Source: Salinicola halimionae
GTDB lineage: Bacteria > Pseudomonadota > Gammaproteobacteria > Pseudomonadales > Halomonadaceae
Length of the DNA stretch: 64,000 nucleotides
Direction: 5' to 3'
Assembly: GCF_003206065.1 (NCBI RefSeq)
Contig: NZ_PZJQ01000004.1
Span: 717,168-781,167, forward strand
In this document: in pieces, positions 14,732 to 64,000 of the stretch
Numbering within the stretch: the first letter of the stretch is position 1
Layout: each line of letters starts with the position of its first letter
The notes under the pieces: model-generated
The model's database searches: none
What the model was told of the DNA's origin: nothing
What the model saw: the letters and a program-made list of their open reading frames with translations, nothing else
Made by a program: the position numbers and the translations under genes

Positions 14732-14807
14732 GTCCCATTCGTCTAGTGGTCTAGGACACCGCCCTTTCACGGCGGTAACAGGGGTTCGAACCCCCTATGG
14801 GACGCCA
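14732..14807 (+). tRNA. tRNA-Glu (anticodon TTC)
   Basis: 76 bases with encoded CCA. Acceptor GTCCCAT/ATGGGAC, anticodon loop CCTTTCACG giving TTC, variable region GGTAAC and T-loop GGTTCGAACC are all intact. First of four tRNA genes in a Glu-Gly-Glu-Gly array; it is identical to the copy at 15014. Confidence 0.97.
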
Positions 14808-14841
14808 CTCGGTTTTGCGAAGTTTGTGTAAAAAGTACGGT

Positions 14842-14916
14842 GCGGGAATAGCTCAGTGGTAGAGCATCGCCTTGCCAAGGCGAGGGTCGGGAGTTCGAAT
14901 CTCCTTTCCCGCTCCA
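14842..14916 (+). tRNA. tRNA-Gly (anticodon GCC)
   Basis: 75 bases with encoded CCA. Acceptor GCGGGAA/TTTCCCGC, anticodon loop CTTGCCAAG (GCC) and GAGTTCGAATCTC T-arm are present. It follows tRNA-Glu by 34 bases, so both are likely one transcript. Identical to the copy at 15143. Confidence 0.97.
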
Positions 14917-14988
14917 ACATTTGGTAGCGTCAGATAGGTAGCATGGGTCGTGAGCCGGAACGCCGGTCCGACGGATGGCCGCCCCATC

Positions 14989-15007
14989 GATCTCCTTTCT
15001 TGCTCCA
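14989..15007 (+). pseudogene. 3' fragment of a tRNA-Gly
   Basis: GATCTCCTTTCTTGCTCCA reproduces the T-arm 3' strand, acceptor and CCA end of the neighbouring tRNA-Gly with one base missing and one substituted. It lies directly before the second tRNA-Glu, and no 5' portion is recognisable. It reads as a relic of duplication in the array. Confidence 0.6.
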
Positions 15008-15013
15008 ATATGC

Positions 15014-15089
15014 GTCCCATTCGTCTAGTGGTCTAGGACACCGCCCTTTCACGGCGGTAACAGGGGTTCGAACCCCCTATGGGACGCCA
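15014..15089 (+). tRNA. tRNA-Glu (anticodon TTC), second copy
   Basis: Same 76-base sequence as the gene at 14732, including encoded CCA and TTC anticodon. The spacer to the following tRNA-Gly is 53 bases, against 34 in the first pair, so the spacers have diverged while the genes have stayed identical. Confidence 0.97.
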
Positions 15090-15142
15090 CTTTCATGATC
15101 GCCAGGTCATGTCGTCGTCGCTAATAGCGTCGGCAGCGATAA

Positions 15143-15217
15143 GCGGGAATAGCTCAGTGGTAGAGCATCGCCTTGCCAAGGCGAGGGTCGGGAGTTCGAA
15201 TCTCCTTTCCCGCTCCA
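15143..15217 (+). tRNA. tRNA-Gly (anticodon GCC), second copy
   Basis: Identical to the tRNA at 14842, with encoded CCA. Last intact gene of the array; a short hairpin with a T-run follows at 15257-15276. Confidence 0.97.
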
Positions 15218-59257: not shown

Positions 59258-59302
59258 CCCACGTCGCTAGCCGTGGCACGCAGTGTGCTGCACCACGATC
59301 CA

Positions 59303-59335
59303 TGCCCCGTACGGTGAATCCGGCGGGGCATTTTT
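59303..59335 (+). terminator. Terminator after the second tctCBA operon
   Basis: TGCCCCG pairs with CGGGGCA (loop 14 bases, partly pairing inside) and is followed by TTTTT, 45 bases after the tctA stop. It separates transport from the condensin-like operon. Confidence 0.85.
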
Positions 59336-59507: not shown

Positions 59508-60968
59508 ATGACCGCCTGGAACAAGCTGCTGGTCGCGACGACGCGGCTGCTGGATCTACATGACAGCGCCCACGAACCGGGTTCGCCCTTCGTTCAGGTG
59601 ACGCAAGAGCAGCGTCGCGGTTTGCGCGACGGCTACTGGCTCGATCTCGGCTGCCTGCTGCTGGATTATCTGCTCGAGGTCGATTTTGCCACCAACAGCG
59701 CGTTCGTTACCCAGCGCCGGTGCCTGACGCATCTGCGCGAAGATTATCCCGATCTGCCCGCCGACGACCTGAGCTTCGTGATCAATCTGCTGGCGACGCC
59801 CAGCGAGATTCATTTTCGGGAGTGGCAAGCGCCTCGGGCCGAAAAGGGCATGCAAGGCGACGCCGAGGACGGCGCTGCCTTGCGGGGGGAGCGTAGCGGA
59901 CGCAGTACCAAACGCACGTCGCTGATCGAGAAGCAGGGCCAGACCGGCCAGGTCAGGTTGACCCCCAGCGGGCGGCAGACCGTCACGCTGGCAAGCCAGG
60001 TCGAGGATTTGCTCTACTCCGAGTACGATGCCGCCAAGGTGGTCGCCGCGCTCTCTCGTGGCGACTATTCGCGGGTCCCGGACATTACCCAGCAGATCCT
60101 GATGGCGATTCGCGCCTTGACCCAGGAACTGCGTCGCGTACGCGAAAACCCGACTCATGAGGGCAAGCTCGCGGCGCTGCTCGACAACGAGCGCCATTAT
60201 CACAATGCGCTGAGTACCATTCAGAGCACGCTGCTCAGTGCGCGCTCGCAGCTCTCGACGCCGGCGCTGATCGCTCAGTTCGGCAGCTGGGCCGGGCAGC
60301 AGGAGGAAGAGTGGGATCTGCGCATGTTATCCGGTGCCATCGGTCGGGTGTTGAACGCGATCGAGAACCTCTCGCGGCGTCTATCCGAGCTGCTATCGGA
60401 TATCGCCGAGGGTCGGATTCAGTCGATGGGCGTGATCGACTTTGCCGGCCTGGCCCACAAGCTGTTGTTATCCCGCCCGCCCAGGCGTCTGCAGGATGCC
60501 GTCATCGCGCGGATGATGCCGCTGGGTACCGAGGTGGTCATGCCACGTGTCGAGACGCTGCTGCCGCTGGTGGAAACACGCCGCGCCGAGCGCAGCGGAG
60601 CGGCGCTGGTCTTCGACGAAGCGGGTGATAAGCCCAGCGCCGATCCACTGCTGGCGCGCTATCTCAAGTTGCAGGGGCCGGCGCTGCGTCAGCGTCTGCG
60701 CCAGGCGCCGCTCTCGTTGCCGGAAGCGCTCAGTGAAGGCTGGCATCACTTCGAGGCGGGTTCGGAGTCGACAAACACCGAAACCCTGGACTGCCTGCCG
60801 CAGTTGCTCAATACCTTCGTCGATACCCAATTGCTCGACGACCATTTGAGCGTCGGGATCGACGACACTCCCTTCACGATCGAATTGCCGGACGGGCGTC
60901 GCATCGAAGGCGCTGTCACGCCGTCGCTGCGCCTGCGCCAGACCGCTCCCGAAGAACAGGAAGTTTGA
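59508..60968 (+). CDS. MukF/MksF/JetA-like condensin subunit (putative)
   Basis: 486 residues, first gene of a three-gene unit with a small subunit and an SMC-like ATPase. It starts MTAWNKLLVATTRLLDLHDS with a winged-helix-like N-terminus (LGCLLLDYLLEVDFATNSAF, LTHLREDYPDLPADDL, SFVINLL). A long helical middle has AALLDNERHYHNALSTIQSTLLSARSQLS, and there is a C-terminal second domain. This wing-helices-wing layout is that of kleisin subunits. I recognise the class from operon order and architecture rather than from close sequence identity. GGAG precedes ATG 59508. In Wadjet loci the equivalent is JetA, in MksBEF it is MksF. Confidence 0.6.
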   Translation: MTAWNKLLVATTRLLDLHDSAHEPGSPFVQVTQEQRRGLRDGYWLDLGCLLLDYLLEVDFATNSAFVTQRRCLTHLREDYPDLPADDLSFVINLLATPSEIHFREWQAPRAEKGMQGDAEDGAALRGERSGRSTKRTSLIEKQGQTGQVRLTPSGRQTVTLASQVEDLLYSEYDAAKVVAALSRGDYSRVPDITQQILMAIRALTQELRRVRENPTHEGKLAALLDNERHYHNALSTIQSTLLSARSQLSTPALIAQFGSWAGQQEEEWDLRMLSGAIGRVLNAIENLSRRLSELLSDIAEGRIQSMGVIDFAGLAHKLLLSRPPRRLQDAVIARMMPLGTEVVMPRVETLLPLVETRRAERSGAALVFDEAGDKPSADPLLARYLKLQGPALRQRLRQAPLSLPEALSEGWHHFEAGSESTNTETLDCLPQLLNTFVDTQLLDDHLSVGIDDTPFTIELPDGRRIEGAVTPSLRLRQTAPEEQEV

Positions 60969-60971
60969 TTT

Positions 60972-61934
60972 ATGAACATGATGGAAATGGGCGAAGTCGT
61001 TGCCTACCTGTTGCGTTATCGCACCGCGGAGCGTGTTCCCAGCGGCGGGCGCAAACGTCGCGCGGCGCGTGAAGGCCAGCTCTCCGAGCGCGACGTCTGT
61101 GCGTTGATCGATGACGCCCAGGAAATCGAACGCGAGGCGCTGCGGGATTTTCTCGCCGGCCAGGGCCTACGCCTCAAGGCATTCGAATCCGGTGACTACC
61201 CCGGTATCGCGCCGGGCTCGCGCTTGTTTGCGTTGCTCCCGGATCCGGAAATGGAGCAGCCACCGCTCTACACTCGAGAACCGGTGTTCGAGGCGCTCAA
61301 GTTACGCCAGGAAAGCCGCGCCGAATTGGCGTTGTGGTATCTGCAGTTATGGCTGCTGCTGCACACGTTGATCTACACCCGTTTGAATCGAGCGCTGTCC
61401 GATGTCAGCCGCTATCAGGAAGCGACCTTCGTCACCCGTGAACTGGTCGAGCTGGTTCGCGAACAATTGGAAACGCTGCGCGGGCTCGGCGAGCGTGCGC
61501 CCGCGAACAGCCGGGTGTTGCTCGACGAGCGCGGCGAAGACATCCCGCGCCGGGTCAAGGCGTTCATCGACCTGCTGAGCCGCGCGGGTCATCTCGAGAC
61601 GGTGCGAGAAACGGCCGATGAGGATGTCTGGCAGCAGACGCTGCTGGGGGCACTGGAAGCCGAGCAGATCGGCGTCAATCACCTGACACACCTGATCGAG
61701 CTCACCTCCATCGAAGGTGTCGAAACAGAATGGGACGAGGTACCGGCGGATGAGATATCTGCGGGCGAGGGCGTAGCCGTCGACGATGAGATGGATACCA
61801 CTCGCGCGGAAGATGCCGGCGAACACGGGCACGAAAACGAGAACGCTACCCACGCAACTGACATGTTTGACCCGCCGTCGGTAGAGAAGACGGACGGAGC
61901 AACGGCCGAAAACGCCGAGGAGAATCGCCGGTGA
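60972..61934 (+). CDS. MukE/MksE/JetB-like condensin subunit (putative)
   Basis: 320 residues, four bases after the first gene. The fold reads as tandem winged-helix (KITE): CALIDDAQEIEREALRDFLAGQGLRLKAFESGDY, SRAELALWYLQLWLLLHTLIYTRLNRALSD, ATFVTRELVELVREQLETL and RRVKAFIDLLSRAGHLETV. It ends in an acidic, disordered tail of about 70 residues (DEMDTTRAEDAGEHGHENEN). The stop overlaps the GTG start of the SMC-like gene (GTGA). Size is larger than MukE/MksE (about 230) because of the tail. Assignment rests on context plus architecture. Confidence 0.6.
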   Translation: MNMMEMGEVVAYLLRYRTAERVPSGGRKRRAAREGQLSERDVCALIDDAQEIEREALRDFLAGQGLRLKAFESGDYPGIAPGSRLFALLPDPEMEQPPLYTREPVFEALKLRQESRAELALWYLQLWLLLHTLIYTRLNRALSDVSRYQEATFVTRELVELVREQLETLRGLGERAPANSRVLLDERGEDIPRRVKAFIDLLSRAGHLETVRETADEDVWQQTLLGALEAEQIGVNHLTHLIELTSIEGVETEWDEVPADEISAGEGVAVDDEMDTTRAEDAGEHGHENENATHATDMFDPPSVEKTDGATAENAEENRR

Positions 61935-64000
61935 GCGTGATCAACCGTATCGAAATTGCCAACCTGCTCAACAAGCACGGCGATATCGCGTCTCCTTGGG
62001 AAGCCAAGATGCGCCATCTGTTGCTCGATCTGCGGGGCCAGTCGAGCGCAATCAGCATGGAAAATGGCTTCGGCAAGACCACCATGGCCGAAGCGCTGAT
62101 CGGCATGCTTTCCCGCGATCGCCAACTGCTGACGCGAACCCGGCGTAAATGTTCCCCCTCCAAGGTCAATGGGGCAGGGCGCAGCTGGACCCATTTGCGA
62201 GTCGAATTTCGCGCGCAGGACAGCAGTCAGCAGGATGACATGCTGGCAGTGGCCGGCGAGGAAGTTGCCGGCGAGACCTTCGTTTTCGGCATGTACGGCT
62301 ACAGCGATGGCAGCGGGCTGGTGTTCTACCACTATCCCGGCAAACTGGCCGACGTGCCGGTGCATCACATTACCCGCGACGGCAAGCTGGCGCTCTACGC
62401 CAACGCTGATTTTCAGAGCACGATGCGGTCACAGGGCGTGACCCGAGCACACAACCGCGAGGAGTGGCTGGAAGCGGTTGGCGTGCATATTTCCCGGCGC
62501 GAACTGGCGCAGTTGGCAGCGTTTCAGAAGGAAGGCGGTGCCGACAAGAGCCAGATCTTCAATGCGATCAAGCCGCGTGCCGGGGAAAAAGCCGACCAGG
62601 CATTTTTCTACGAAGTACTGGCGCCGCAGATTCTCTCCGGGGCGACGCGTGGCGAGACCGATGAAGAAGAGGAGTTGATCGAAGACGTCATTCTCAACTC
62701 CGGTACTCGGATCACCGAGCTGCGCCATCGGCTGGCGGAAGCCGAGAGCGATCAGCGCCGCGCCGACGAAAAGGTCGAACGCCTCGCCACTCTGAACGAA
62801 GAGGGCGAAGGACTGCTCGAGGCGCGCCGCCAGCTCACCGGGCTGGATGCCTCGCTGCTCGAAGCCGAACGACTGCTGGGCGGCCAGGCGCTGGCACCTT
62901 TGCCAGGATTGCCGGGCTTTACCGACAGCGAATCGCGTCGCGAGCTGAGCCGTGAAGTCGCCGACAGTATCGGCGGTTTTGCCTGGGCGACCGGCGACAT
63001 CGAGCGGCCCCGCGTCTCTACCTGGCTGCTGTCGAAACTGTCGCGCCAGGCCGAGCGCAACGTGCGACAGGCTCTCTCCGAGCGTGGCGCTCGGGTCGAT
63101 ACGCATCGTCGTCTGGTTCATCTTCCCGAGGCGACATGGCTCACGGCGCGTGACATCGGCCATGTGTCGTTCGATCAGGCGCGCGCCTGGCTGGCTGACA
63201 GTCACGCCTTCAACGACGACGCTGCGCGCTACCGTGCCATCGGCGTGCTCGACGACGCCGCCGAAGTCTTCGAGGGGCTGGACGGCAACCGGTTCCGTGA
63301 AGAGGTGATCGCCGATCGTGAATATCGCCGCTCGTTGCGGCTGGATGCCGAACAGCTCGATGAAGAGCTCGAACGCGTGGAGCATGAGCGCGAACAGCTG
63401 GAGTCGCGGCAGCGCGATTTCATCGACAATCAGAGCGTCTACACCCAGGCGCTGGCGGAAGGGCTCTTCACCGAGACCGAGCTCGAATCGCCCGAAGCGA
63501 CGCGGGATGCCGCTCAAACGGCCCTCGCCGATGCCCGCAAGGCGCATGCCGATCATCTCGGCCGCATGGGCGAATTCAAACAGCCCGCACAGTGGTATCA
63601 AAGCTTCATCGCCGAGCATCCCGATACCTCACCCGAAGAACTGCTGGCGACCAAGCATGAGCAGCATGACGCTCTCGAAGCGCAGCTCGAGGATTGGAAT
63701 GCGCAGGCCAGTGCGTTGGACGCGCAGCGTGAATCGACTCGTGAGGGGTTGCAGACACGGCGTGAACAGCGCCATCGTCTCGAGGGAGAGCTGGCCCCGC
63801 TCGCGGCAGGACGCGATGCGTGGCAGACATTCGCCGAGCAGTGGCCCGACCACTCGGCGGTCGGTTTCTGGAGCGAGCGCAAGAGTGCCCTGGCCGAACT
63901 CGAACAGGCGCTGGCCGAAGCACGTCGTGCTCAGAGCGATGCCAAGGCACGGCTGTCACGGCTGGAACCGCTGAAGGGTGCGGCCGAACGCTATCGGCAC
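61931..64000 (+). CDS. SMC-like ATPase, MukB/MksB/JetC type, N-terminal part
   Basis: 690 codons are visible and the frame continues past the window edge. GTG at 61931 overlaps the upstream stop (GTGA). The N-terminus VSVINRIEIANLLNKHGDIA leads to a P-loop SMENGFGKTTMAEALIGML (Lys49), matching the MukB N-domain in order and spacing (NG.GK.TTMA..). The first glycine of the canonical G-x4-GKT is Met43 here. After a head domain of about 230 residues, long coiled coil follows (ELRHRLAEAESDQRRADEKV, EQLDEELERVEHEREQLESR and beyond). Signature and Walker B motifs would be outside the window. It is the motor of a condensin-like complex, either chromosomal (MksB-like) or a plasmid-defence Wadjet. Confidence 0.7.
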   Translation, partial: MSVINRIEIANLLNKHGDIASPWEAKMRHLLLDLRGQSSAISMENGFGKTTMAEALIGMLSRDRQLLTRTRRKCSPSKVNGAGRSWTHLRVEFRAQDSSQQDDMLAVAGEEVAGETFVFGMYGYSDGSGLVFYHYPGKLADVPVHHITRDGKLALYANADFQSTMRSQGVTRAHNREEWLEAVGVHISRRELAQLAAFQKEGGADKSQIFNAIKPRAGEKADQAFFYEVLAPQILSGATRGETDEEEELIEDVILNSGTRITELRHRLAEAESDQRRADEKVERLATLNEEGEGLLEARRQLTGLDASLLEAERLLGGQALAPLPGLPGFTDSESRRELSREVADSIGGFAWATGDIERPRVSTWLLSKLSRQAERNVRQALSERGARVDTHRRLVHLPEATWLTARDIGHVSFDQARAWLADSHAFNDDAARYRAIGVLDDAAEVFEGLDGNRFREEVIADREYRRSLRLDAEQLDEELERVEHEREQLESRQRDFIDNQSVYTQALAEGLFTETELESPEATRDAAQTALADARKAHADHLGRMGEFKQPAQWYQSFIAEHPDTSPEELLATKHEQHDALEAQLEDWNAQASALDAQRESTREGLQTRREQRHRLEGELAPLAAGRDAWQTFAEQWPDHSAVGFWSERKSALAELEQALAEARRAQSDAKARLSRLEPLKGAAERYRH

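Follow-up and report, generated by a model that had tools for sequence, protein, structure and literature searches.

A Wadjet-related SMC operon of Salinicola halimionae that lacks the JetD gene present in some of its relatives

MksBEF of Pseudomonas aeruginosa is encoded in the order F-E-B, and its structural maintenance of chromosomes (SMC) subunit, MksB, has about 950 residues, far fewer than the protein described here. Wadjet (JetABCD) shares the order kleisin-KITE-SMC. One review speculates that MksBEF and MukBEF stem from Wadjet-like defence systems, MksBEF through loss of JetD (PMC10586767, in the portion cited here). We analysed a stretch of 64,000 nucleotides from Salinicola halimionae (contig NZ_PZJQ01000004.1, positions 717168-781167; hereafter the window), in which three genes on the same strand begin at position 59508 and run over the right edge. 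A reading made from the letters of the window alone (the sequence-only reading) had seen here a condensin-like operon of order F-E-B, and the coordinates confirm it: a kleisin-like, a KITE-like and an SMC gene follow one another with a gap of 3 bases and an overlap of 4. On balance we favour the view that they encode a three-subunit SMC complex that would descend from a four-gene JetABCD-type ancestor, would have lost JetD and would now serve as a second, MksBEF-like chromosomal condensin. The operon and its first motif are as follows.

59508..60968, plus strand: kleisin-like gene in the JetA/MksF/MukF position, 486 aa, aligned with 14 relatives
60972..61934, plus strand: KITE-like gene in the JetB/MksE/MukE position, 320 aa, starting 3 bases past the stop of the first gene
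61931..64000, continuing to window-equivalent 66856 (L002:5099-10024, L002 being this genome), plus strand: SMC gene, the first 690 of its 1641 codons in the window
62057..62083, plus strand: Walker A motif MENGFGKTT (SMC residues 43-51), N-G-x-G-K-T in 73 of 73 SMCs

The SMC gene starts with GTG at 61931, within the 4-base overlap, and its frame is open at the window end. Read onward in the genome, it stops at window-equivalent 66854-66856, giving 1641 aa, compared with 998-1219 aa for JetC in five type I loci and 1408 aa in one type II locus (stop-to-stop frames). The operon ends there, with three genes and no fourth. The sequence-only reading had placed a possible JetD/MksG gene beyond 64000; the next gene is instead a cyclopropane synthase gene on the opposite strand, about 100 bases on (CMAS, 6.5e-94).

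Relation to Wadjet

A Wadjet link by descent is supported, because in relatives from this family the slot next in line is occupied by a JetD-family gene. Such a gene (346-377 aa) directly follows the SMC gene in 28 of 72 named related loci and is absent from 44, two of which are undecidable at contig ends (L083, with 208 bases downstream and counted as JetD-minus, and L086, with 632). These 72 loci represent the best 80 of 121 relatives (L054-L077 partly overlap with them, to judge by the equal lengths of several contigs, and are uncounted). The Pfam family JetD_C was over its cut-off in all six proteins scanned from the slot, and PADLOC JetD1 matched five slot proteins with E values of 1.5e-10 to 8.4e-18; L060, a sixth member of the first JetD cluster, was not among these five. 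We compared profiles with those of four type I loci by hhalign, with twelve pairs of unlike subunits as controls (0.03-0.5%). The slot-gene profile matched JetD at 95% along 74 columns (E 3.2e-8), and the toprim-type residues E-N and W-G-D-x-D are invariant in 19 aligned JetD rows.

The SMC itself points the same way. Its N-terminal head matched type I JetC with an hhalign probability of 94% (E 1.2e-7), and the full profile reached 89%. Its head motifs include a Walker A with lysine and threonine, Q-x-D, an MSEGQ signature, a Walker B with its aspartate, and IHN with its histidine. Signature and Walker B, by which the sequence-only reading had proposed to judge this gene, are thus both present, except that the Walker B glutamate is replaced by glycine. 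An alignment of 15 diverse SMCs, which share as little as 26% identity with the present protein, shows conservation of N-G-x-G-K-T, Q-x-D, S-x-G-Q, the aspartate of Walker B and the IHN histidine; that aspartate is followed by glycine, and the first canonical glycine of Walker A, a methionine here, is methionine or leucine. When this genome and the 72 named loci are taken together, the IHN pattern is present in 72 of 73 SMCs and Walker B reads D-G-[LI]-F-S, in place of the canonical Asp-Glu, in 73 of 73. By contrast, D-E-A-F occurs in all seven other Wadjet-type JetC proteins with a recognisable motif (five type I, one type II and one unassigned locus). An eighth comparison locus, L207, was excluded from this count, its large protein having no Walker motif by pattern. 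L207 (5542-9841) has the same gene order with a JetD-like gene after that protein; so has L206 (5303-10326), where the large protein has a normal D-E Walker B.

The second protein is conserved up to about residue 245 and has a variable tail beyond. The six best Protein Data Bank (PDB) fold matches of its model, built from 35 sequences (predicted local distance difference test score, pLDDT, 76.7), were all MukE chains except for one JetABC chain, presumed to be JetB, with E values of 0.005-0.023, probabilities of 0.93-0.99 and TM-scores of 0.42-0.50 over the target. These matches support a KITE-type fold. For the first protein, also modelled from 35 sequences (pLDDT 76.5, predicted TM-score 0.39), Foldseek placed presumed MukF chains at ranks one and three and JetA at rank eleven, none of them significant (E 0.14-0.44); chain identities were taken from entry titles and chain lengths throughout. 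Gene order and protein sizes agree with JetABC. The subunits named by the sequence-only reading are supported for the SMC, by its head motifs, and for the KITE protein, by its predicted fold, whereas a kleisin identity of the first gene is only weakly indicated, mainly by gene order and the non-significant MukF and JetA folds.

As single sequences the three proteins gave no match over cut-off in Pfam or NCBIfam and none with E < 0.5 to the PADLOC JetA, JetB and JetC models (for the SMC, its window part only), and PDB sequence searches with the SMC each returned only a designed or coiled-coil chain. PADLOC gave nothing for the first two proteins; its matches to the window part of the SMC, LmuB at 2.7e-5 and JetC3 at 0.51, both lie outside the head. 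In one distant relative, L077, JetC3 matches weakly around Walker A (E 0.0054). Lamassu was rejected on the position of the LmuB match (SMC residues 260-666), the KITE-type fold and the neighbouring JetD genes. The folds nearest to the KITE-like protein include MukE chains, but MukBEF was rejected too: the N-terminal domain of MukB, PF04310, had no match in this genome and did match in the Escherichia coli control, whereas ScpA matched once here and not at all in its E. coli control. The operon is therefore not of the E. coli MukBEF type, as the sequence-only reading had suspected. PF12128 (DUF3584/JetC3) gave eight proteins over cut-off in the phylum draw, with frames of 1227-1268 aa and no G-x-G-K-[ST] by pattern in the five inspected. 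With JetC3, 249 genomes yielded 5 matches, all short and weak; with JetD3, 329 genomes yielded 19 partial matches, of which 15 fell in genomes also matched by JetD1 or the same family group. The comparison with other Wadjets was therefore confined to types I and II and one unassigned locus.

JetD across the relatives

In this genome neither our profile nor the PADLOC models used, a single one apiece for JetD1, JetD2 and JetD3, detected a JetD. The sequence-only reading had offered a divergent condensin or a plasmid-clearing Wadjet; what we find is a Wadjet-related operon of condensin type, and not a complete plasmid-clearing Wadjet. All 18 Salinicola genomes have the SMC, which is far above chance, and one of the 18 has JetD.

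Remnants of JetD lie past the SMC gene as two C-terminal pieces in Billgrantia gudaonensis (L123 and L065, same species) and as the N-terminal 45 residues in B. kenyensis (L119). As sequence evidence, these prove loss in two lineages. We next asked how often the state has changed, using a FastTree tree of 72 SMCs (this genome entered as L002 and L086, on a short contig, was left out; 12 forks are poorly supported and some branches are long). JetD state changes at least 14 times, and well-supported branches alone also force 14. Shuffling the state 500 times gave a mean of about 22 changes and never as few as 14; the trait is therefore clustered yet repeatedly switched. With midpoint rooting the six outermost rows are all JetD-positive, and we infer that most changes were losses. 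The SMC studied here groups inside the Salinicola rows and is 92% identical to that of S. halophyticus. Where JetD is present, its pairwise identities follow those of the SMC (Pearson 0.91, Spearman 0.89, 378 pairs), also within Halomonadaceae by linear correlation (Pearson 0.86, 190 pairs). In three JetD-bearing Halomonas loci (L091, L116 and L138), additional fragments resembling the SMC N terminus are encoded ahead of the main SMC frame, in a frame of their own.

Six sister pairs of opposite state were compared at their flanks. In L146/L145 and L098/L099 the flanks, at 92-98% identity, resume 23 bases past the SMC gene in the JetD-less strain and about 1130 bases past it in the other, a nearly clean one-gene difference. 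In L142/L119 the start of JetD remains and the flank resumes later; JetD stands opposite 1.3 kb of other sequence in L134/L104 and opposite about 480 bases in L106/L139 (both S. salarius); and the downstream flank of L127/L123 has no match.

The nuclease-less complexes are under purifying selection. By a Nei-Gojobori script on hand-picked pairs, the ratio of nonsynonymous to synonymous substitution rates (dN/dS) of the SMC is 0.07-0.16 both in 11 JetD-less and in 5 mixed pairs, and 0.08-0.16 in 6 JetD-bearing ones; that of JetD is 0.15-0.25. Coverage of the model by the best SMC frame is at least 93% in all 72 named loci; in the 18 Salinicola genomes the frame is whole in 17 and split into three pieces in the remaining one (G017). 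We conclude that the complex is maintained without the nuclease. Another draft genome, G015, has two SMC copies on separate contigs (L015 and L021), one at a contig edge, which may be an assembly duplicate.

What the complex may do

The ancestor would have been a four-gene Wadjet-type system in the order JetABCD, from which the JetD nuclease was lost. The present complex would most likely load on DNA as a kleisin-closed SMC ring, its heads would most likely engage with ATP, and its target would most likely be the host chromosome, where it would be an additional, MksBEF-like condensin alongside SMC-ScpAB. A nuclease-less F-E-B operon beside SMC-ScpAB, as with MksBEF, fits this genome (of SMC-ScpAB, ScpA alone was sought). 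Because ScpA is present and a MukB match absent, the operon probably encodes a second condensin, like MksBEF in Pseudomonas; we infer both this chromosomal role and loop extrusion.

Several results weigh against this account. Missing the Walker B glutamate speaks against an ordinary loop-extruding motor, and the C-terminal head of the SMC reached only 1.5% against JetC by hhalign, although signature and Walker B align. The KITE-like protein scored 5.4% against JetB and had no match in a PDB sequence search; none of its fold matches has E < 0.001, and their TM-scores over the query are 0.29-0.33. The kleisin-like protein scored 0.15% against JetA, and its PDB sequence search returned a single chance-level laminin fragment (E 0.07). 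On the evolutionary side, four of the six sister pairs show no clean single-gene difference, and the rank correlation of JetD and SMC identities within Halomonadaceae is modest (Spearman 0.51, 190 pairs). Since the JetD-less SMC end of L139 resembles those of other Salinicola, the JetD of its sister L106, the sole one in Salinicola, may be a regain, and some of the 14 changes may be gains.

Plasmid defence could have been retained, the complex sensing small circular DNA and either blocking it without cutting or recruiting a nuclease encoded elsewhere. Relatives do bear JetD, and the complex is kept under selection. However, the JetD profile found no match in 17 of 18 Salinicola genomes including this one (unrelated nucleases were not searched for), and genes downstream of the SMC recur among the 72 loci (a cfa-like gene in 33, a LysR gene in 39, a LysE gene in 35). 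The chromosomal place is therefore often shared, unlike that of a mobile island, and we regard retained defence as unlikely.

The main mechanistic rival to loop extrusion is an ATP-locked clamp, in which heads lacking the Walker B glutamate would bind ATP and engage, and would then hold DNA as a bridge or tether, with no processive extrusion. The invariant D-G amid otherwise intact nucleotide-binding motifs, set against D-E in the other JetC proteins, would suit it. Degenerate ATPase motifs are also found elsewhere: MksB of P. aeruginosa PA14 seemingly has no Walker A (PMC10123090, in the part cited). Yet the glycine is equally present in JetD-bearing relatives, and characterised Wadjets need a working JetC ATPase for cleavage (PMC10586767, as far as the cited portion goes), which together suggest that hydrolysis is rescued somehow. 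We think a clamp quite improbable. A decaying remnant left after JetD loss is highly improbable and was already disfavoured: the JetD fragments in two lineages and the broken SMC of G017, which may also be a sequencing error, are outweighed by whole SMC frames nearly everywhere and a dN/dS of about 0.1.

Given the invariant glycine, ATP hydrolysis in the condensin that we favour would have to be slow or rely on another residue. A bolder proposal, to which we give slightly less than even chances, is that these loci form an unrecognised Wadjet lineage with an invariant Walker B glycine and a non-canonical ATP cycle, which has shed JetD many times while the complex stayed under selection. Among the matches listed in the open-access literature on Wadjet and condensins in Salinicola and Halomonas, the family is undescribed; subscription papers and preprints were outside the scope.

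Genomic setting, distribution and implications

The operon is preceded by one further feature.

59302..59335, plus strand: terminator-like hairpin followed by a U tract, separating the operon from the TctA gene (computed fold)

The hairpin at 59302-59331, followed by UUUU, folds at -20.8 kcal/mol (z -4.55). The upstream terminator of the sequence-only reading is thus supported by folding, but a consensus terminator scan disagrees and did not list it, probably because of a bulge in the stem. A second hairpin, found by folding immediately past the SMC stop, was likewise unlisted. Elsewhere in the window, a tRNA-Glu/tRNA-Gly pair occurs twice in tandem (14732-15217). A gene for a bacterial-like globin, seen at L069:5636-6034 and L071:5636-6025 among others, follows the SMC in 12 of the 72 loci, at most about 150 bases from the SMC end in five and about 1.0-1.1 kb away, with JetD between, in seven.

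A profile of the KITE-like protein matched 58 of 151 genomes of the family, in 13 of 24 genera, and 3 of 369 genomes in the class draw, this one included. The named relatives are mostly Halomonadaceae; the others come from Oceanospirillum, Endozoicomonas, Terasakiispira, Thiodiazotropha, a Cellvibrionales bacterium, Idiomarina, Aliidiomarina, Agaribacterium and Undibacterium. A phage origin was rejected, none of 74 pattern matches in viral contigs being confirmed. A relative of JetD, 39% identical across 96% of the query, occurs in two P. aeruginosa plasmid records, where it is closely preceded by a stretch matching 14% of the SMC. On one P. aeruginosa plasmid (L170, NZ_MT732184.1), genes for a Tn3-type transposase and for mercury resistance are found close to a Wadjet-annotated JetD and a short SMC-like stretch.

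Within a single bacterial family, one and the same locus occurs now with JetD, now without it. For at least two pairs of near relatives JetD is almost the only difference there, and the idea of a Wadjet-like origin of MksBEF and MukBEF can therefore be tested with matched strains. The absence of the Walker B glutamate, if confirmed biochemically, would question what an SMC requires to move DNA. Should the bolder proposal above hold, the family would offer natural replicates, in series, of a change from plasmid defence to a chromosomal condensin.

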